Virus record (IMG/VR): IMGVR_UViG_3300026518_000017
Coordinates: 1-45,671 of that record
Strand: one strand, 5' to 3'
DNA from: a virus
Length of the DNA stretch: 45,671 nucleotides
In this document: one piece after another, positions 1 to 45,671 of the stretch
Numbering within the stretch: position 1 is the stretch's first letter
Layout of the letters: each line of letters opens with the position of its first letter
The notes under the pieces: model-generated
Told to the model about the DNA's origin: nothing
Seen by the model: only the letters and a program-made list of their open reading frames with translations
Database searches by the model: none
Program-made: the position numbers and the translations under genes

Positions 1-93
1 AAAAAAAGAGTACACGGAGAGCGTGTCCGACTATGGATAAAAAAGAACCCAGAGAAAAAGCCGGAGGACGAGGGTAAAGAGATAGATTTTTAA
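1..93 (+). CDS. 3' end of primase-helicase gene (duplicate of the end of the window)
   Basis: In-frame tail, ending in TAA, of the large primase-helicase gene that is complete at 43135-45636. It appears again here because the contig starts and ends inside the same gene. The first codon is AAA (Lys) here and AGA (Arg) in the other copy. This is not a separate gene. Confidence 0.95.
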   Translation, partial: KKRVHGERVRLWIKKNPEKKPEDEGKEIDF

Positions 94-128
94 CCACGAA
101 AGGAAAAGCCATGATAGACCTTGACCAC
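3..128. repeat. terminal direct repeat, left copy
   Basis: Positions 3-128 are identical to 45546-45671 (126 bp). The match extends to position 1 with one mismatch at position 2 (A here, G at 45545). This is the signature of a circular or circularly permuted molecule assembled with an overlap, giving a unit length of about 45,543 bp. A true short terminal repeat on the virion DNA is less likely because the repeat lies inside a coding sequence. Confidence 0.9.
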
Positions 129-16391: not shown

Positions 16392-17602
16392 TAAAAGCGC
16401 CCCCCGTTACCTTGGTCAGCCGCCGCCGCTTTCAACATTCTCGATTGCTGCTCGATAAGCACGTCGGACAGACCGTTGAGGTCTTGACTGCTCTGAATGT
16501 TCCACACATTTGTAAAGTTTATATTGCTGTTTTTTTGCATTCTCGCGAAATCGCTCTCAGCTCCGCCACCGAAAAGGCCGGACATAAAATCAACCTGAGC
16601 CATTTGTATAGCGCTCAGCTTATTAACAAGATTTTGAGGTGCGGCGCGTATTGTCTGCGCCGCTTTATATAGGTTGCTGTTCTCAAGGTCTCTCCATGCC
16701 TTCCCGACCTCATACAGCGCCCACGCAAGGCCGACAAAAAGCGTCTTGACCGGATTGAACCATACAACCAAACCAATCGCCAGAGCCTTGAGCGCAGTTT
16801 TATCTCTCGGCTCAAGGTTGTCCCACAAGTTAGATAGCGCTTTCCATGTGGCCACAAGCTCGTTTTTGAACCCGACCACCATCGGGATTACTTTATCGAG
16901 GTACTCGATCAAATACGGAGCAATCTCGGCGGAAACTGTGTCCTTAAATAAATTCCACTCAACACGTATCCGAGCAAAGGACTCACTGAGTTTTACAAGC
17001 CTGTCAATTTGCTCTTGTTTCAAAAACTTATTTTTCGATAAGGAGTCAAATTCCTTTTTTGACAGCCGGAGCGCCTGAATCATCGACGGATCGAAACCAA
17101 TTTGTGACAGTAGGCCGCCACGTCCAAAAACAGCCGCCACTTTCCCGTTTCTCGTCCACTCGTCGAGGTTTCTGTCAATTTTAACCCTCAGCTCCTCAAG
17201 GACGTCACCAACATCACGACCGCGCACGTCTGTAATTCCGAGCATAGAAAATGCGGCTGGGTTTCCCTTGCCCATTTCAACGTCGGCGATTGCCTGAGCC
17301 ATAGCCTTAAATGATTCGGTCACTTGGTCGGCGGACATTGCGGGGTTTTTCATCACAGCGACACGTTGCCATTTTTGCAAGGTCTCTATTGAGTTTCCTG
17401 TTTCTGTGTTGAAATTGCGCATTGATAGAGCTGCGTCGACCGATCCGGCCACAAATCTATTCACAGCAAAAACGCCAGCCGCAGCAACCGCCGCGAGCTT
17501 TATTACGTTGTTTCTTGCCGTGGTAATTCGGTCATTGAACCCCTTGAGTTTATCCTCGTCAACGTCAAATCCCAGCGCTACAAATAACTCACCGACTTTC
17601 AT
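16391..17602 (-). CDS. tape measure protein (short)
   Basis: 403 residues. N-terminal VGELFVALGFDVDEDKLKGFNDRITTARNNVIKLAAVAAAGVFAVNRF is the usual tape-measure start; hydrophobic segments lie near residues 35-50 and ~265-300 (LAIGLVVWFNPVKTLFVGLAWALYEVG). Its position after the frameshifted chaperone pair is diagnostic. At about 1.5 A per residue it predicts a tail of roughly 60 nm, short for a contractile tail. Confidence 0.88.
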   Translation of the reverse strand: MKVGELFVALGFDVDEDKLKGFNDRITTARNNVIKLAAVAAAGVFAVNRFVAGSVDAALSMRNFNTETGNSIETLQKWQRVAVMKNPAMSADQVTESFKAMAQAIADVEMGKGNPAAFSMLGITDVRGRDVGDVLEELRVKIDRNLDEWTRNGKVAAVFGRGGLLSQIGFDPSMIQALRLSKKEFDSLSKNKFLKQEQIDRLVKLSESFARIRVEWNLFKDTVSAEIAPYLIEYLDKVIPMVVGFKNELVATWKALSNLWDNLEPRDKTALKALAIGLVVWFNPVKTLFVGLAWALYEVGKAWRDLENSNLYKAAQTIRAAPQNLVNKLSAIQMAQVDFMSGLFGGGAESDFARMQKNSNINFTNVWNIQSSQDLNGLSDVLIEQQSRMLKAAAADQGNGGRF

Positions 17603-35153: not shown

Positions 35154-36092
35154 TCAAAAAACCCTCACAGGCATTAAAACCGCAATCTGACCCATATAAT
35201 CCTTGCCCCTAACCAATAGAGGGGAGGAGGAGTCTCCATACTCAGCGTCTCCGGAGCATATTTCACACAGGTAATTTATGTTAAACCCTGCCTTGAGCGG
35301 GATCGTTGTGTCCCAATCGACTCCGGTCTTATGAAAGTCTCCGGATACCGTAATTTTTCCACCCTCAATGATAACAGCCGCTTTTTTGGGTTTTTGACCG
35401 TTGATTTTCGCAATAACATGCACATGAGGGCGTATTTTTATAAAATCACCGATATCAATTTCACAGCGCCCGTCATTTTCAGGGATAACTCTTTCCCATT
35501 GTGGGAATTTGCCGTCAATCGTGCGGCCATAAATTCGCGCTCCGGCTATGTGAGCAATATAGTGGTTACAATCGAAAAACTCCAAAGTGACCGCGTTGGC
35601 TCTCAGCTCTTTCGCGAGTGAGGTGATGAGGCTCACAGCCTTTCGAGGCAATATCGGGCGTCCCTCAATCGCGGCGTTTACGTCTACAACGTGGAGAAAG
35701 TGCCCGTTAGTTGCGACGGCCTTGTCGTGATCGAAACAAATGCCATTGAGATAATAGCGGGTCTCCTCAGTGCTCTGCGCTCGACCGACCCATGACAAGG
35801 CTTGTAACTTTCCAGCATCCAAAGACACAGAGCCAAGTGATTCGCCTTTTATGTTTTCCTCAATATTTGGGAAATCTCCGGAATCCTCACCAGCCTCAAT
35901 AAATAGGCCGACCTTAAAGCCCTCGTTAAAATACACGCCATTATCAAGGTGTGTCGGTACTGTGACATAGTGATCCATATCGGTTGAGGTGGCCATGCCA
36001 TCCTTTACGAGAACCCTGTCCAAAACTGGGATAGTGTTCCGCTTGTAAATGTTGCTTACAAGGGTTTTTGATTTTGTGGTTTTAATATCCAT
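35154..36092 (-). CDS. dnaN-like: DNA polymerase III beta sliding-clamp homologue
   Basis: 312 residues from ATG 36092, chosen because AAAGGA lies 8 nt upstream; an in-frame start at 36125 lacks this. Beta clamp landmarks: GKFPQWERVIP (~185-195; compare GKFPDYxRVIP in DnaN) and the C-terminal AVLMPVRVF (compare VLMPMRL). Somewhat shorter than bacterial clamps (~370). It should encircle DNA and tether polymerase. No phage polymerase was recognised, so host polymerase III is the likely client. Preceded by a structured leader and an operator-controlled promoter. Confidence 0.88.
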   Translation of the reverse strand: MDIKTTKSKTLVSNIYKRNTIPVLDRVLVKDGMATSTDMDHYVTVPTHLDNGVYFNEGFKVGLFIEAGEDSGDFPNIEENIKGESLGSVSLDAGKLQALSWVGRAQSTEETRYYLNGICFDHDKAVATNGHFLHVVDVNAAIEGRPILPRKAVSLITSLAKELRANAVTLEFFDCNHYIAHIAGARIYGRTIDGKFPQWERVIPENDGRCEIDIGDFIKIRPHVHVIAKINGQKPKKAAVIIEGGKITVSGDFHKTGVDWDTTIPLKAGFNINYLCEICSGDAEYGDSSSPLLVRGKDYMGQIAVLMPVRVF

Positions 36093-36119
36093 GATTTTAA
36101 ATCCTTTGTGGTTAATTGT

Positions 36120-36182
36120 GGACACAGCGAGAGCATATCTTTCTGATAGGCGCGGAATCTTACCGACGACCTCGCTGTGTCC
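36120..36182 (-). other. structured 5' leader of the clamp gene
   Basis: A perfect 12-bp inverted repeat (36120-36131 with 36171-36182, loop 39 nt) ends ~28 nt before the clamp ATG. Further hairpins (GAGC-GGTTT-GCTC and CCCT/AGGG pairs) lie upstream in the ~145-nt leader. It could control translation of the clamp. No known riboswitch recognised. Confidence 0.55.
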
Positions 36183-38431: not shown

Positions 38432-38875
38432 TTATTTTTTTGATTTCATGCGATCCGAATACACTCGCGACGCTTCCTCAGCCGTTGTCAGGTCGTTGTA
38501 ATCGAATCGCTCGTCCTTAATGACCTGATCCGTTTCAACTCTATCGGCGTATCCGTGCTTAGCAAGGACGAGCTTTGTAATGGTCGCGTTAAATCCTCCG
38601 GAGAGGCCACCAGAGATGAGTGTTTGTTGTTGAATGTCTTTGAGGACGTCTAATATATGTAAAAAGTCCTCATTTTCTTCTTTCTCAGCCCAGTTGTAAA
38701 TCGTCTTTTGTGAGACGCAAAACACAGAGGTCGCAAGGCCAACGATGGACGGAATGATATGTCCGTGGTCTTGATAACCTCCGGTCATGTATTCAATCGT
38801 CTTAGGGATTGTCTCCTCATTGTACTTGGTAGGTCGCCAAGGGGGACGAGGTGCTTTGTCAGTATCTTCGCTCAT
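38432..38875 (-). CDS. terS: terminase small subunit
   Basis: 147 residues from ATG 38875 (GAGG 6 nt upstream; another ATG four codons earlier). RPTKYNEETIPKTIEYMTGG, IPSIVGLATSVFCVSQKTIYNWAEKEENEDFLHIL (helix-turn-helix) and LISGGLSGGFNATITKLVLAKHGYADR match the phage DNA-packaging small subunit family (gp3-like). Recognises the pac/cos site. Separated from terL by 4.2 kb of small genes and the clamp. Confidence 0.88.
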   Translation of the reverse strand: MSEDTDKAPRPPWRPTKYNEETIPKTIEYMTGGYQDHGHIIPSIVGLATSVFCVSQKTIYNWAEKEENEDFLHILDVLKDIQQQTLISGGLSGGFNATITKLVLAKHGYADRVETDQVIKDERFDYNDLTTAEEASRVYSDRMKSKK

Positions 38876-38904
38876 GTGTGTCCTCATATTAACGTGGTGT
38901 TTAC

Positions 38905-38933
38905 ATTATGAGGTGAAAATCGTGGGTCGTCAA
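38905..38933 (-). promoter_or_regulatory. promoter before terS
   Basis: On the minus strand: TTGACG (38928-38933), 17-nt spacer, CATAAT (38905-38910). An operator-like half-site GTGTTTAC lies just downstream (38897-38904). Confidence 0.6.
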
Positions 38934-39026
38934 ACATTGAAAAACATAGTAAACACTGTGTTGTATTTTCATAATCTGTCCCAGTGGTCAGTTTTGTTTT
39001 ATTTCAGTGACTTAACTATGGTCGCG

Positions 39027-39053
39027 TGGGACAGGCTGGGACAGCTTGGGACG
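39027..39053 (-). repeat. three tandem TGGGACA iterons at 10-bp spacing
   Basis: TGGGACA at 39027 and 39037 and TGGGACG at 39047: exactly one helical turn apart, so a protein would bind the same DNA face three times. Confidence 0.8.
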
Positions 39054-39170
39054 TTTTATGAAAAATCGTTACGCGCAACTCTTTGTTTTTATTATATTTT
39101 ATATAAAAGTAGTATAAAAATATACTCTGTCCCAACGTAAAAAGGAAAACTGTATAATTTTTGGGGGGAT

Positions 39171-39199
39171 GGGGGGTTCGTGAAAATGGAGCACCCCCC
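39171..39199 (+). terminator. GGGGGGT/ACCCCCC hairpin followed by T-run
   Basis: GGGGGGT (39171-39177) pairs with ACCCCCC (39193-39199). A run of six T follows at ~39205. It may stop transcripts from upstream or be structural in the origin region. The same stem recurs at 39460. Confidence 0.55.
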
Positions 39200-39419
39200 A
39201 CCCACTTTTTTAAAAGTCTTGGTCTTTTTTATTTTTTTGTGGGACATTTATAGGTATTGTTTTATTTCAGTGGTTTAATATATATTCGTTTTCCGTAATC
39301 TGTCCCAATTATACATAATAAATTAGTGTTGTATTTTCATAACAGGGGGAAATGGGGGAAATCAGTTAAAAAAACGTGTATTTTTCGCGTATTTAAAAAC
39401 ACTGGAAAAAATTATTTTG

Positions 39420-39448
39420 TTGACACTGTGTTTATATGGTGTTAGCGT
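39420..39448 (+). promoter_or_regulatory. promoter of the rightward block with operator motif
   Basis: TTGACA (39420-39425), 17-nt spacer, TAGCGT (39443-39448). Operator-like GTTGACACTGTGTTTAT at 39419-39435. A TGTCCCA element (39450-39456) falls at the expected transcription start. Confidence 0.65.
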
Positions 39449-39459
39449 TTGTCCCAGTA

Positions 39460-39489
39460 GGGGGGTCGGCGATTTTCGGATCACCCCCC
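39460..39489 (+). repeat. second GGGGGGT/ACCCCCC hairpin, in the leader of 39509
   Basis: GGGGGGT (39460-39466) pairs with ACCCCCC (39483-39489), loop of 16 nt, ending ~8 nt before the AAAGGA ribosome site of the next gene. Same stem as 39171-39199 with a similar loop. Confidence 0.6.
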
Positions 39490-39508
39490 CCAACAGAAAG
39501 GATATGAA

Positions 39509-39694
39509 ATGTTAAAAATTGCAACAATTATGGATTGGCTGACGCTCGGATTTTTCCTCGGAATGTCTGTGCAGTCGATTGTATGGTACGGCGACGAGTG
39601 GCTCGCGATTGGATATTTTGCGTTATTCTCGCTCTGGTGTATCAGTGTGACCCTGTATCAAATACTTGAGGCTGTGAAAGGTGATGAGGAATGA
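39509..39694 (+). CDS. small two-helix membrane protein
   Basis: 61 residues, ATG 39509 after AAAGGA. Two hydrophobic segments (IMDWLTLGFFLGMSVQSIVWY and WLAIGYFALFSLWCISVTLYQIL), acidic C-terminus. First gene of the rightward operon and coupled (ATGA) to the SleB-like hydrolase, so it may assist it or act in the membrane. Function unknown. Confidence 0.75.
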   Translation: MLKIATIMDWLTLGFFLGMSVQSIVWYGDEWLAIGYFALFSLWCISVTLYQILEAVKGDEE

Positions 39695-41410: not shown

Positions 41411-41776
41411 ATGTCGGAAAAGACTGTAAAAATTCAAGAGGATACACACGAGGAACTTATCGAGACCGCCGATAAATTCGGGTTTAAGGTCGCGGCCTTT
41501 ACTGACCTGTGCATAAAATTCGCGTGTGGTCATTTCAGAGAAAAGGGAATCAGTCTTGACCGTGTAAATCTCGGCCTTAATGCCCGATATCGTGAAAAGC
41601 TCGTCGAAGATTCGGCGGCGATGGCGAAACGCGGCATTAAGGAGTATTCCGAATGGCTGTCAATGCAGACACCGCAACAACAGGAAATCCTCAAGCATTG
41701 CTCTGGAATACACAAACAGGAAGCGATTGACGCGACCGCGAGGAAAAAAATGGAGCAATCACTCGATACAAGTTGA
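41411..41776 (+). CDS. ribbon-helix-helix-type protein
   Basis: 121 residues. KTVKIQEDTHEELIETADKFGFKVAAFTDLCIKFACG: N-terminal strand (TVKI), helix, turn, second helix, the ribbon-helix-helix pattern. A helical C-terminal half follows. It ends directly at operator 41772-41788 (stop 41774-41776 inside it), so it is a good candidate for the repressor of the early operators, though nothing shows binding. Confidence 0.7.
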   Translation: MSEKTVKIQEDTHEELIETADKFGFKVAAFTDLCIKFACGHFREKGISLDRVNLGLNARYREKLVEDSAAMAKRGIKEYSEWLSMQTPQQQEILKHCSGIHKQEAIDATARKKMEQSLDTS

Positions 41777-41838: not shown

Positions 41839-42069
41839 ATGTCAATCGAATATTCAAGGTCTTTCTCTGCGGAGGGTTTTGAGGACGCAGACCACACAAT
41901 GTCCCTTAACTTTGAGGGTGATGTTTTACGAGTGACGGCGGGATATGACCCAAATAACACCGCCACAATAACGCTCGAACAATTTGACGAAATGGCTCGT
42001 CAGGTCGAGGTTTACAGGGAAATGAGACATATAGTTGCAAAATCAGATTTAGGGAGAATCGAGGAATGA
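41839..42069 (+). CDS. small early protein
   Basis: 76 residues: SRSFSAEGFEDADHTMSLNFEGDVLRVTAGYDPNNTATITLEQFDEMARQVEVYREM. Beta-strand-rich with a C-terminal helix. No family recognised. ATGA overlap with the GcrA-like gene, so co-translated with it. Confidence 0.75.
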   Translation: MSIEYSRSFSAEGFEDADHTMSLNFEGDVLRVTAGYDPNNTATITLEQFDEMARQVEVYREMRHIVAKSDLGRIEE

Positions 42070-42515
42070 CAGACCCAAAAAAAACGCGGTGGAATAAAAA
42101 GAGGGATGACGTTCTCACGAGCATGATTGAGAGCGGTCACGATATAAAAAAAGTCGCGTTTTCTCTCGGTTGTTCCGTTGAGGCTGTGGAGATAAGGGCT
42201 AGAAAACTCGGTGTTTTAAAGTCGAAAAATCCCATAGTGACAGACAGTCGCACGACCCCACAAAACCCGAAATCAAATCGAAAAAAAGCCCTTGAGGATG
42301 ATTATGAGACGCCCGTTTCAGGTCTTAAGTCAATGGCCGAGCTTGGCGCTCGTGATTGCTGTTTCCCTATTGGAGACCCGAAAAAAGAGGGGTTTGGATT
42401 TTGTGGTAAGCGGCGGGAATCACACCGAGTATATTGTGACGAGCATAAAAAGGTCGCATATCGCGGAGTGACGTCGTATGACGATTTTATGATAAAGCCA
42501 ATCAAGAGAAAATAA
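42066..42515 (+). CDS. GcrA-like regulator
   Basis: 149 residues. N-terminal helix-turn-helix-like WNKKRDDVLTSMIESGHDIKKVAFSLGCSVEAVEIRARKLGV corresponds to the GcrA N-terminal DNA-binding region; a basic linker follows; the C-terminal CCFPIGDP...GFGFCGKRR...YCDEHKKVAY (~97-135) is the GcrA core. GcrA binds sigma-70 RNA polymerase and activates promoters bearing methylated GANTC in alphaproteobacteria. A phage copy may redirect host polymerase or tune phage promoters. The wide spacing between GDP and FCG is an added loop. Confidence 0.88.
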   Translation: MTDPKKTRWNKKRDDVLTSMIESGHDIKKVAFSLGCSVEAVEIRARKLGVLKSKNPIVTDSRTTPQNPKSNRKKALEDDYETPVSGLKSMAELGARDCCFPIGDPKKEGFGFCGKRRESHRVYCDEHKKVAYRGVTSYDDFMIKPIKRK

Positions 42516-43066
42516 TGAGCAAAAGATCGAATTTTAAAAGACGCAAAAATGACGCCTATTTTACCCCATACTCTCCGGCCGTCCCCGCGCTATTGCCGTA
42601 CCTGCCAAAGAAAACGGACTTTATTGAACCATGCGCAGGAAATGGACAGCTTATAGACCACCTCACAAAGCACGGTCACAGGTGTGTCGGGGCGTATGAC
42701 ATTGATCCCCAGCGTCGAGACATTACAAAGGCCGACTCAAGGGTAATAAAAAACCATGAGCATTGCGTGTATATTACCAACCCGCCTTGGACAAGGGAAA
42801 TACTGCACCCGATGATCGAGAATTTATCAAGCCAGAGGGCGACGTGGTTACTTTTTGACGCTGACTGGAAATACACTATTCAGGAAAAAATGGCCAAAAG
42901 AATCGGGTGCAAGACAGTGCCGGAGCTTATGGAATACTGTGCCAAGGTCGTCGCCGTTGGCCGCGTGTCGTGGGAGGAGAACGGCGTATCCGGTAAGGAC
43001 AACACCGCATGGTATCTGTTTGTCCCGTACAAAACACAAACAATTTTCGAACCCCGCCCGTTATAG
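42515..43066 (+). CDS. adenine-type DNA methyltransferase-like protein
   Basis: 183 residues. NDAYFTP at the N-terminus, SAM motif I FIEPCAGNGQLIDHL (~37), AYDIDP (~61), and catalytic motif IV ITNPPWTREIL (~88) are typical of N6-adenine methyltransferases. Short, lacking a clear target-recognition domain. With GcrA next to it, the two may form a methylation-dependent control pair. It shares one base with the previous stop. Confidence 0.85.
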   Translation: MSKRSNFKRRKNDAYFTPYSPAVPALLPYLPKKTDFIEPCAGNGQLIDHLTKHGHRCVGAYDIDPQRRDITKADSRVIKNHEHCVYITNPPWTREILHPMIENLSSQRATWLLFDADWKYTIQEKMAKRIGCKTVPELMEYCAKVVAVGRVSWEENGVSGKDNTAWYLFVPYKTQTIFEPRPL

Positions 43067-43134: not shown

Positions 43135-45636
43135 ATGTCACAGGACTATATCACAGAATTTATAGAATTTTTGCAGTCTCACGGCTTTCAGCCTAACGAC
43201 CAGATTCAAGGTGATGACAAAATACACAGGATCAAGGTCAACGGAGAGCGAAAGGCTGACCTGAGGTATAAGCTCAAGGTTGGCGCGGATCATGCTTTCG
43301 GGTGGTTTATATACTCAAAACACGGCGAAACTATAGGCTGGCATTCAAAGACAAAGAAAACAATGACCAAGGCGGAAAGGGAAGCCCTTAACGCAAGAAT
43401 TGAGGCCGACCGGATAGCAAATGAGCAAGCCCGCGAGAAAGAAATGCTTGAGATTGCGGAGAAGGCTCGCAGACTATGGGCGAGTTATGGTCAGGCCGAC
43501 CCAGAGCACCCATACCTCAAGAAAAAGGGTATTGAGCCTCTGGCTATAAGACAAAACAACGAAACGCTCGTCGTCCCGATATATGTCAGCGGCCAGTTGT
43601 GGAGCTTGCAATATATAGACAAAGACGGAAACAAAAGGTTTTTGTCCGGAGGAAAAACAAAGGGCGGATATGCGACCCTTATATTTAAAAACGATTCCAT
43701 TGACACCATTGTGATATGTGAGGGGTACGCGACAGGAGTATCTGTCAGAATGGCCACAGGACTTCCCGTTGTTGTCGCGTTCAACGCCGGAAATATTACA
43801 GAGGTCGCCAAACACATAAGGGGAAAATTTAAGGAATCGCGGATCATTATAGCGGCGGATAACGACCTCTTTACGATGAAACCTGAGCACCAAAAAGACC
43901 ACCCGAATTATAAGGATACTGACGGGGCGGCTGACGTGTGGAATGAGTGGCGCGAGGCTGGGTATCTGATAAACGCGGGACTTGAGAAAGCTATCGAAGC
44001 GGCGAAAATATGTGACTGTGAGATTTCTGTACCGGAGTTTGAGGATTTATCCGAAAAGCCCACGGACTACAATGACCTCCATAGTAAAGAAGGCCTTGAC
44101 CGATTAAGAACACAAATTCACCTGACAAAAAAGCCCTCTGAGCTTGAGTCGGTTGATAGGGGCGTCGAGGGGACACCTGAGCAGAGCCAGAGTGACAAGC
44201 AACCCCTCGACGTTCCGCCTGATTTTGAAATCCCACCGACTCACATATATGAGGAAGCGTATAAAGAGGAGACGCAGAGGGTCAGGGACTTGTATGACAT
44301 TGACCAGCAACCGACATATGAGGGCGGCGAGGTTTACTCCCCTCCGGTCGACGAGCAGGATTCACACGCGACGGACTGGGTCGGGAGCTTAGTGACAAAC
44401 AAAGACGGGAAGCCTATAAGCACAAGCCTAACAAATATAGATTTAATTTTGAGATACCACCCGTCATTTAAAGACCTGTTTTGTTATGACGAGTTTGCTC
44501 ACCAAAAAACCTTGGTCACATGCCCGCCGTGGGAGAGTGTTGATAAATTTAAGGTCAGGGTCATGACAGACGAGGATATCACAAGGCTCGCGATTGAAAT
44601 GGAGAAGCGGGCAAACGGTATTAAGCCGTCCCTCACAAATCTTAAAAAAGTGCATGATTCGGTTGTAATGAAGAAACGCAGACACCCAGCGAGGGAGTAT
44701 TTCTCGCGCCTTGAGTGGGATGGTGTCGAGAGGCTTAAAGACTGGCTGACGGTGTATTGTGGCGCAGATTATGACCATAAGGATTATATTTCCGCCGTCG
44801 GTATAAAATGGCTCACTGCGGCGGTCGCTCGTGTGTTTGAGGGTGGGATAAAATTCGACCATATTTTAATTTTCGAGGGGGAGCAGTCCGCTGGTAAATC
44901 GACCATGCTGAGGGAGCTTGCGACAATTCGAGGGTGCGAATACTTCATTGACGATATGGAAGTCACAAAGCTAGGAAATGACGAGGAAGTGCCAAAAATG
45001 CAGGGCAAACTCATTATTGAGCTGGCCGAGCTTTCCGGCATGAGGAAGCGGGACTCTGACAGCTTGAAACAGGCAATTACAACGCAAAAAGACACGATCA
45101 TACGAAAGTACGCGAATGAGCCGACAACCTACCCCAGACAATTCGTTCTCGCTGGAACTATCAACCCTAAAGACGGATATTTACGAGACAGCACAGGAAA
45201 CCGCCGTTTTTGGCCTGTAAAGGTAAATGGAAAAATCGACGTTGCTGGTATCAAGAGGGATAAGGAGCAGCTCTGGTCTGAGGCCGTTCACAGATATAAA
45301 AACGGCGAAAAATTATTCCTTGATCCGGAGATCGAGGCGCTCGCGAAGGTGGCGCAGGAGGATAGGCGCTCCGTTGATCCGTGGTTTGCTCGCGTCAAAA
45401 AGGTGGCGGGTAATCGTAAAGAGCTTAATGACGAGGATATGGAGGAAATATGGACGTCAATCGGCGTAAAAATAAACAATCGCGACGGATACACAGCCTC
45501 AAGATTGACGGACATACTGATACAACTCGGATACGAGTGGAGCAGAAAAAGAGTACACGGAGAGCGTGTCCGACTATGGATAAAAAAGAACCCAGAGAAA
45601 AAGCCGGAGGACGAGGGTAAAGAGATAGATTTTTAA
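43135..45636 (+). CDS. Toprim primase - VirE-type helicase fusion
   Basis: 833 residues. An N-terminal zinc-free primase-like region (HGFQPNDQIQGDDKIHRIKV... DHAFGWFIYSKHGETIGWHSK) and helix, then Toprim with VICEGYATG (~193) and IIAADND (~239). A low-complexity linker (~350-420) is followed by the VirE-like helicase: YHPSFKDLFCYDEFAHQ (~440), Walker A EGEQSAGKST (~581), Walker B-like LIIELAEL (~627), RKYANEPTTYPRQFVLAGT and RRFWPVKV. Should prime and unwind phage DNA. It is the gene in which the contig was opened. Confidence 0.93.
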   Translation: MSQDYITEFIEFLQSHGFQPNDQIQGDDKIHRIKVNGERKADLRYKLKVGADHAFGWFIYSKHGETIGWHSKTKKTMTKAEREALNARIEADRIANEQAREKEMLEIAEKARRLWASYGQADPEHPYLKKKGIEPLAIRQNNETLVVPIYVSGQLWSLQYIDKDGNKRFLSGGKTKGGYATLIFKNDSIDTIVICEGYATGVSVRMATGLPVVVAFNAGNITEVAKHIRGKFKESRIIIAADNDLFTMKPEHQKDHPNYKDTDGAADVWNEWREAGYLINAGLEKAIEAAKICDCEISVPEFEDLSEKPTDYNDLHSKEGLDRLRTQIHLTKKPSELESVDRGVEGTPEQSQSDKQPLDVPPDFEIPPTHIYEEAYKEETQRVRDLYDIDQQPTYEGGEVYSPPVDEQDSHATDWVGSLVTNKDGKPISTSLTNIDLILRYHPSFKDLFCYDEFAHQKTLVTCPPWESVDKFKVRVMTDEDITRLAIEMEKRANGIKPSLTNLKKVHDSVVMKKRRHPAREYFSRLEWDGVERLKDWLTVYCGADYDHKDYISAVGIKWLTAAVARVFEGGIKFDHILIFEGEQSAGKSTMLRELATIRGCEYFIDDMEVTKLGNDEEVPKMQGKLIIELAELSGMRKRDSDSLKQAITTQKDTIIRKYANEPTTYPRQFVLAGTINPKDGYLRDSTGNRRFWPVKVNGKIDVAGIKRDKEQLWSEAVHRYKNGEKLFLDPEIEALAKVAQEDRRSVDPWFARVKKVAGNRKELNDEDMEEIWTSIGVKINNRDGYTASRLTDILIQLGYEWSRKRVHGERVRLWIKKNPEKKPEDEGKEIDF

Positions 45637-45671
45637 CCACGAAAGGAAAAGCCATGATAGACCTTGACCAC
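45546..45671. repeat. terminal direct repeat, right copy
   Basis: Identical to 3-128 (see left copy). Contains the end of the primase-helicase gene, the TAACCAC leader box and the first 18 bases of gene 111-485. Confidence 0.9.

Follow-up and report, generated by a model that had tools for sequence, protein, structure and literature searches.

The gap between two divergent gene blocks at 38888-39508 is most probably a replication origin of the iteron type whose reader would be the VapE helicase that the phage itself encodes, as argued here from the arrangement of its sites and from related loci. The DNA, a virus record from IMG/VR, is one stretch of 45,671 bases, and all of it is called the window below. 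The preliminary description had left the region as either a replication origin or a binding array for a phage protein; the comparative evidence favours the origin and points to the predicted winged helix at the C-terminus of VapE as the likely binder. The candidate initiator (Toprim-VapE) is encoded by the same replicon, and its binding to the repeats is suggested by covariation in relatives.

Gene layout and structure of the gap

The first and last 128 bases of the window (1-128 and 45544-45671) are identical but for one mismatch. This overlap of the record ends makes a circular or circularly permuted, near-complete genome probable. A gap of about 620 bases separates two opposed gene blocks. 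The leftward block runs from 38887 and includes the terminase small subunit, other genes, the terminase large subunit and structural genes. The rightward block runs from 39509 through a small ORF, a cell-wall hydrolase, RHH-like and GcrA-like proteins, a methyltransferase and Toprim-VapE, and continues across the record ends with helicase, exonuclease, topoisomerase-like and RecT genes. The window is not a satellite of the PICI type lacking its own virion genes, since it carries TerS, TerL and a tail lysozyme-like gene. The cumulative GC-skew minimum at 38545 coincides with the switch in gene direction and is hence confounded. The genes bearing on the argument are the following.

38432..38887, minus strand: terminase small subunit (GP3_package), first leftward gene
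39509..39694, plus strand: first rightward ORF, 61 aa, no family match
41411-41776, rightward block: RHH-like protein (assigned by eye)
42066-42515, beside the replication gene: GcrA-like protein whose N-terminal end is HTH-like
42515-43066, next to the replication gene: DNA methyltransferase, after the GcrA-like gene
43135..45636, plus strand: Toprim-VapE primase-helicase, 833 aa, proposed initiator
45487..45585, plus strand: recognition helix and wing of the predicted C-terminal winged helix (model residues 70-102), proposed iteron reader

Two further observations concern the window as a whole. A sliding-clamp-like protein (DNA_pol3_beta_2, 35154-36125) is encoded in the leftward block amid late genes. 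The heptamer CTCCGGA occurs at 35 window positions (e.g. 397, 7398, 8671 and 38596), with about 5-6 expected for a 7-mer, and many of its copies lie within the palindrome CTCCGGAG.

The features of the gap are listed from left to right.

38888..39508, no strand: putative origin region, intergenic, between divergent operons, delimited from ORFs and composition (GC 0.36 against 0.47 for the genome)
38905..38933, minus strand: leftward promoter-like site TTGACG-17-CATAAT, for the terminase operon (consensus match)
38958..38974 and 39326-39342, plus strand: 17-bp duplicated block, copies identical
38972 and 39296: duplicated block TAATCTGTCCCA
38977..38983, plus strand: iteron TGTCCCA, left group
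38991..39015 and 39254-39278, plus strand: 25-bp duplicated block, 88%
39027..39033, minus strand: iteron TGTCCCA, left group, first of the 10-bp triplet
39037..39043, minus strand: iteron TGTCCCA, left group, second of the triplet
39047..39053, minus strand: degenerate iteron TGGGACG, one mismatch, third of the triplet
39083..39142, no strand: putative AT-rich DNA unwinding element, least stable 60 bp of the genome (nearest-neighbour duplex energies)
39128..39134, plus strand: iteron TGTCCCA, right group
39163..39205 (within 39155-39215), plus strand: G-rich hairpin followed by a T run (TTTTTT), facing right
39223..39422, no strand: second AT-rich stretch, where the genome's stability minima for 100-bp and 200-bp windows lie
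39240..39246, minus strand: iteron TGTCCCA, right group
39301..39307, plus strand: iteron TGTCCCA, right group
39450..39456, plus strand: iteron TGTCCCA, right group, just ahead of the first rightward gene
39460..39490, plus strand: second GGGGGG/CCCCCC hairpin, presumed leader of the first rightward gene

Within 480 bp (38977-39456) there are seven exact TGTCCCA/TGGGACA sites and one single-mismatch site. Eight copies in both orientations, three of them at exact 10-bp spacing, had been described earlier; the two orientations and the spacing hold, but only seven copies are exact, the eighth (39047) having one mismatch, so that the triplet consists of two exact sites and TGGGACG. A genome-wide search for the motif, proposed at the same time, found no equal frequency elsewhere: only three exact copies lie outside the gap, at 16819, 24288 and 35309. 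Of the genome's 7,370 canonical 7-mers, TGTCCCA forms the densest 500-bp cluster, and no other attains seven copies per 500 bp. First-order Markov simulation of the region gave a mean of 0.12 copies and a maximum of 2 in 2,000 runs. The whole-window count (10 seen, 4.3 expected) is weak on its own, while the clustering is extreme. The gap therefore contains a short repeat clustered in one place, as is expected of an iteron origin.

The second feature expected of such an origin, an AT-rich unwinding element beside the repeats, is also present. By nearest-neighbour energies, no other 40 bp of the genome form as unstable a duplex as 39086-39125 (z 4.6, with 3.6 for the runner-up); the AT-rich tract noted previously thus proves to be the genome's extreme in duplex instability. 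Four sites lie to the left of the least stable tract (38977-39053) and four to the right (39128-39456). DnaA boxes (TTWTNCACA), which would indicate a DnaA-dependent origin, are absent from 38888-39508, and motif scans of the gap region for GANTC and IHF-like motifs gave no matches.

The remaining elements of the preliminary description fared variously. Its duplicated blocks are there, at 17 bp identical, 25 bp at 88% and TAATCTGTCCCA. So are both GGGGGGT/ACCCCCC hairpins, with folding energies of -23.9 and -19.3 kcal/mol, only a little more stable than shuffled sequence (z about -1.7, plus strand); no clear function emerged from the folding of the two. The hairpin at 39163..39205 is possibly a rightward terminator, and the consensus scan did not list it; if it is one, a short transcript may begin inside the origin. 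Of the divergent promoters placed at the edges, the left one (TTGACG-17-CATAAT) is supported, but the consensus scan found no plus-strand promoter near 39420 on the right, where an isolated TTGACA is visible by eye only. The term "master control region" is apt in that the region lies between divergent operons but goes beyond the evidence as wording; a side role of the gap in the control of the two operons is likely.

An operator array bound by the RHH-like (41411-41776) or the GcrA/HTH (42066-42515) regulator, with no origin role, is an alternative reading of this arrangement. Divergent operons begin at both gap edges, one site is located just upstream of the first rightward gene, and the promoter-like site faces left. 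RHH proteins commonly bind phased direct repeats, and the L091 clade encodes a small protein, RHH by eye, beside its array. Such an operator would have no need for the genome's least stable duplex.

Repeat arrays beside replication genes in other viruses

An exact search of IMG/VR for three TGGGACA at 10-bp spacing, with the reversed motif as control, found the triplet in 59 stretches against 3 for the reversed motif, with a 30-bp tandem repeat in one of the latter. Further TGGGACA copies in both orientations occur in most of the 59 stretches. By local similarity, the viral matches represent about 27 mutually unrelated neighbourhoods. Many array-side genes with an annotation serve replication. 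A PrimPol-AAA_25 gene of one cluster lies within or beside the array in 35 of the 59 stretches; other annotated array-side genes are VapE, DUF927+HTH_56, DUF3987 and DUF5906. In some phages the array is located inside DnaD-like or initiator genes (an initiator in L109, L121 and L131), and in L117 (G042), L108 and L123 it overlaps the VapE gene's end or comes immediately after it. VapE itself was rejected as the common factor of array phages: it was found in only 5 of 35 records, one of which (MW202485) has no array.

Arrays were also surveyed through the replication genes. With a VapE alignment, and ignoring the motif, 80 IMG/VR loci were fetched; a repeat cluster of at least six copies was present in 45 non-redundant VapE loci, a few of which came from earlier, separate searches. 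The gene end was defined as the last 150 bp of vapE, the first 700 bp after it or the 700 bp before it. The array lies there in 37 of the 45 loci against 22% expected, with a binomial p of 1.8e-17 that is optimistic in treating loci as independent once near-identical C-terminal ends were removed. The TGGGACA/GGGAC forms are the commonest repeats at VapE loci, which also carry GGTGACA, GGTTGGACA, GGGTACA, GCCCACA and others; a tendency of the repeats to end in ACA is seen by eye only. The window array, 4.1 kb upstream of the vapE start, differs in position from most VapE arrays.

Among loci fetched by PrimPol alignment, 41 of 42 have a 7-mer repeated at least five times just after the PrimPol gene (TGGGACA in 26, GGTAACA in 7, others in 8), a sample that is biased to TGGGACA, the query alignment coming from TGGGACA-carrying phages, and that was not de-duplicated. 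That arrays in these unselected samples, VapE and PrimPol alike, track the replication gene and often sit at the 3' end of that gene instead of at a promoter speaks against an operator.

The gap region had no match in a DNA similarity search against phage records, and scans with TerS and primase yielded no close relatives. The searches turned up no close relative that carries TGTCCCA in the corresponding gap, and none of 80 TerL-related loci carries at least three TGTCCCA in 500 bp. The nearest primase relatives, at no more than 44% identity, have other repeats. In these relatives the corresponding slot holds an origin-like region. In L219 and L225, TerL- and TerS-like genes (labelled by eye from size, order and sequence) run leftward, a gap with repeats (TGGACGGGTA and GATGTGAAAG) and AT-rich DNA follows, and the primase is encoded rightward. 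For MW202485 and PP438406, the stability minimum over 40 bp of the stretch that was fetched lies in this divergent gap (z 4.7 and 6.4, respectively), and their repeats are weak. Marinobacter phage vB_MalS-PS3 (MF959999) encodes a VapE-like primase and has a strong iteron array (GGTCACCCC) right after that gene; it differs from the window in the repeat and in the downstream position. The PS3 stretch (L194:6744-6990) holds seven GGTCACC in both orientations directly after the primase gene and is probably the origin of that phage.

The C-terminal domain of the helicase and the repeat

In one VapE clade, wing residues and iteron vary jointly. A W-x-R-Y-R/K wing pairs with GGGAC, a W-x-R-Y-Q wing with GGTGAC (L261, L269, L242 and L275) and a W-x-K-Y-R wing with GGTTGGAC (L271 and L268), while L252 and L270 break the rule (GGAAAC, 2.8 kb away). 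The wing/iteron classes are interleaved on the tree of the helicase core. Core identity between L278 and L268 is about 96%, against only 64% for the C-terminal domain, and their iterons differ. In L268 and L271, the core is about 77-80% and the C-terminal domain 88% identical, with a common iteron. L255 and L261, with cores about 82-86% identical, have WERYR and WERYQ wings with GGGAC and GGTGAC, respectively. The L278/L268 pair is, as judged from these sequence comparisons, a natural exchange of domain and putative origin. The array and the C-terminal domain are thereby shown to travel together, and the case that one reads the other is strong but indirect. Since the array and the domain adjoin in the DNA, one recombination could move both.

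The C-terminal domain of the window protein was predicted by AlphaFold2 with a mean pLDDT of 86 (93-96 by block over residues 41-100) as a helix-helix-helix-strand-strand wing fold. Comparison of the predicted domain with the PDB matched many winged-helix proteins, none of them significantly. At a position where most GGGAC readers have R or K, the domain has R, and its wing, Y-E-W-S-R, is one position off the W-x-R-x-R pattern.

The joint change of the iteron and the helicase C-terminal domain is a further point against an operator served by the RHH-like or GcrA-like protein, which is considered unlikely overall. In the preferred reading, that of an origin, the Toprim-VapE primase-helicase would use its C-terminal domain, the predicted winged helix, to bind the TGTCCCA sites and would assemble on the two site groups on either side of the AT-rich tract. 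Melting of this tract would let helicase rings load on the separated strands, where the primase domain of the same protein would start synthesis.

On a wider scale, it is conceivable, and suggested here tentatively, that unrelated initiators (VapE, PrimPol-AAA_25 and possibly others) share a vocabulary of origin iterons, 7-8 bp long and in many cases with ACA at the end, of which TGGGACA is the commonest and which exchangeable winged helices would read. The C-terminal domain and the array would then form a mobile specificity cassette, of which the window may be one instance.

Other readings, known origins and significance

A packaging start (pac or cos) recognised by the adjoining terminase small subunit is very unlikely. 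The TerS gene starts at the left gap edge, and in L126 and L138 the array lies in or beside a TerS-like gene; the surveyed arrays, however, associate with replication genes, many of them far from any terminase, and packaging would leave both the low-stability tract and the link with the helicase C-terminal domain unexplained.

The same triplet search in bacterial genomes gave 37 matches, many in chromosomal gaps. In L196-L215, TGGGACA/TGTCCCA pairs form dispersed, REP-like hairpin repeats in several bacterial genomes, the taxa being Coriobacteriaceae, Oscillospiraceae, Mucilaginibacter and acidobacterial MAGs. The motif alone is no proof of an origin, because TGGGACA pairs constitute dispersed hairpin repeats in some bacterial chromosomes, and the notion that all TGGGACA arrays are origins was dropped, as the chromosomal matches resemble such repeats. 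For the window itself, a host-type REP/hairpin repeat or a minisatellite with no phage function is scarcely credible: genomes of Coriobacteriaceae, acidobacteria and other taxa do contain TGGGACA pairs as scattered inverted repeats, and some matches in the collection (L106 and L161) are plain tandem repeats, but the window's sites stay within one gap, where most stand singly and both orientations occur, and phage arrays keep a fixed place relative to the replication genes of two helicase families.

As for the origin reading, no description of TGGGACA, TGTCCCA or GGGACA as an iteron or origin was found in the open-licence literature. Comparable layouts are known. Origins of SaPIs and Gram-negative PICIs lie just downstream of rep and have an AT-rich region with an iteron set on either side (PMC6092414; PMC7581432), and the SaPI origin with its Rep helicase and iterons is credited to Ubeda 2007 as cited in PMC7581432. 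The window resembles them in its two sets of short repeats that flank an AT-rich stretch; their initiator helicase has a DNA-binding C-terminal domain, and that of VapE is predicted to be a winged helix. It is unlike them in that its iteron is 7 bp long and is carried by a complete phage. The PICI origin lies immediately 3' of rep, whereas the window array lies upstream of vapE, in the divergent gap between terminase and early genes. Because the position immediately 3' of the helicase gene does not apply, the region is described as an iteron-type phage origin and not as a PICI origin. In SCCmec, the C-terminal domain of the Cch2 helicase binds short direct repeats in an intergenic region (PMC7581432). 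Cch2 differs from the window protein in its helicase family, its AAGTG iterons and a separately encoded primase.

Phage lambda has the iterons of its O protein inside gene O, together with an AT-rich tract, and O is not a helicase. The lambda origin is similar to the window as a phage origin with iterons and an AT-rich tract; an array inside an initiator gene is a feature that L109, L121 and L131 share with it, while the window's array is intergenic.

Judging by the loci compared here, a similar layout may be frequent in full phages with VapE helicases. For this uncultivated phage, the gap provides a testable candidate origin. The survey also offers a rule for finding origins, namely a clustered 7-mer at the ends of vapE or PrimPol genes or in the divergent gap before them. 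The joint change of wing residues and repeat suggests that origin specificity may be predictable, and can be tested, in a large family of phage helicases.
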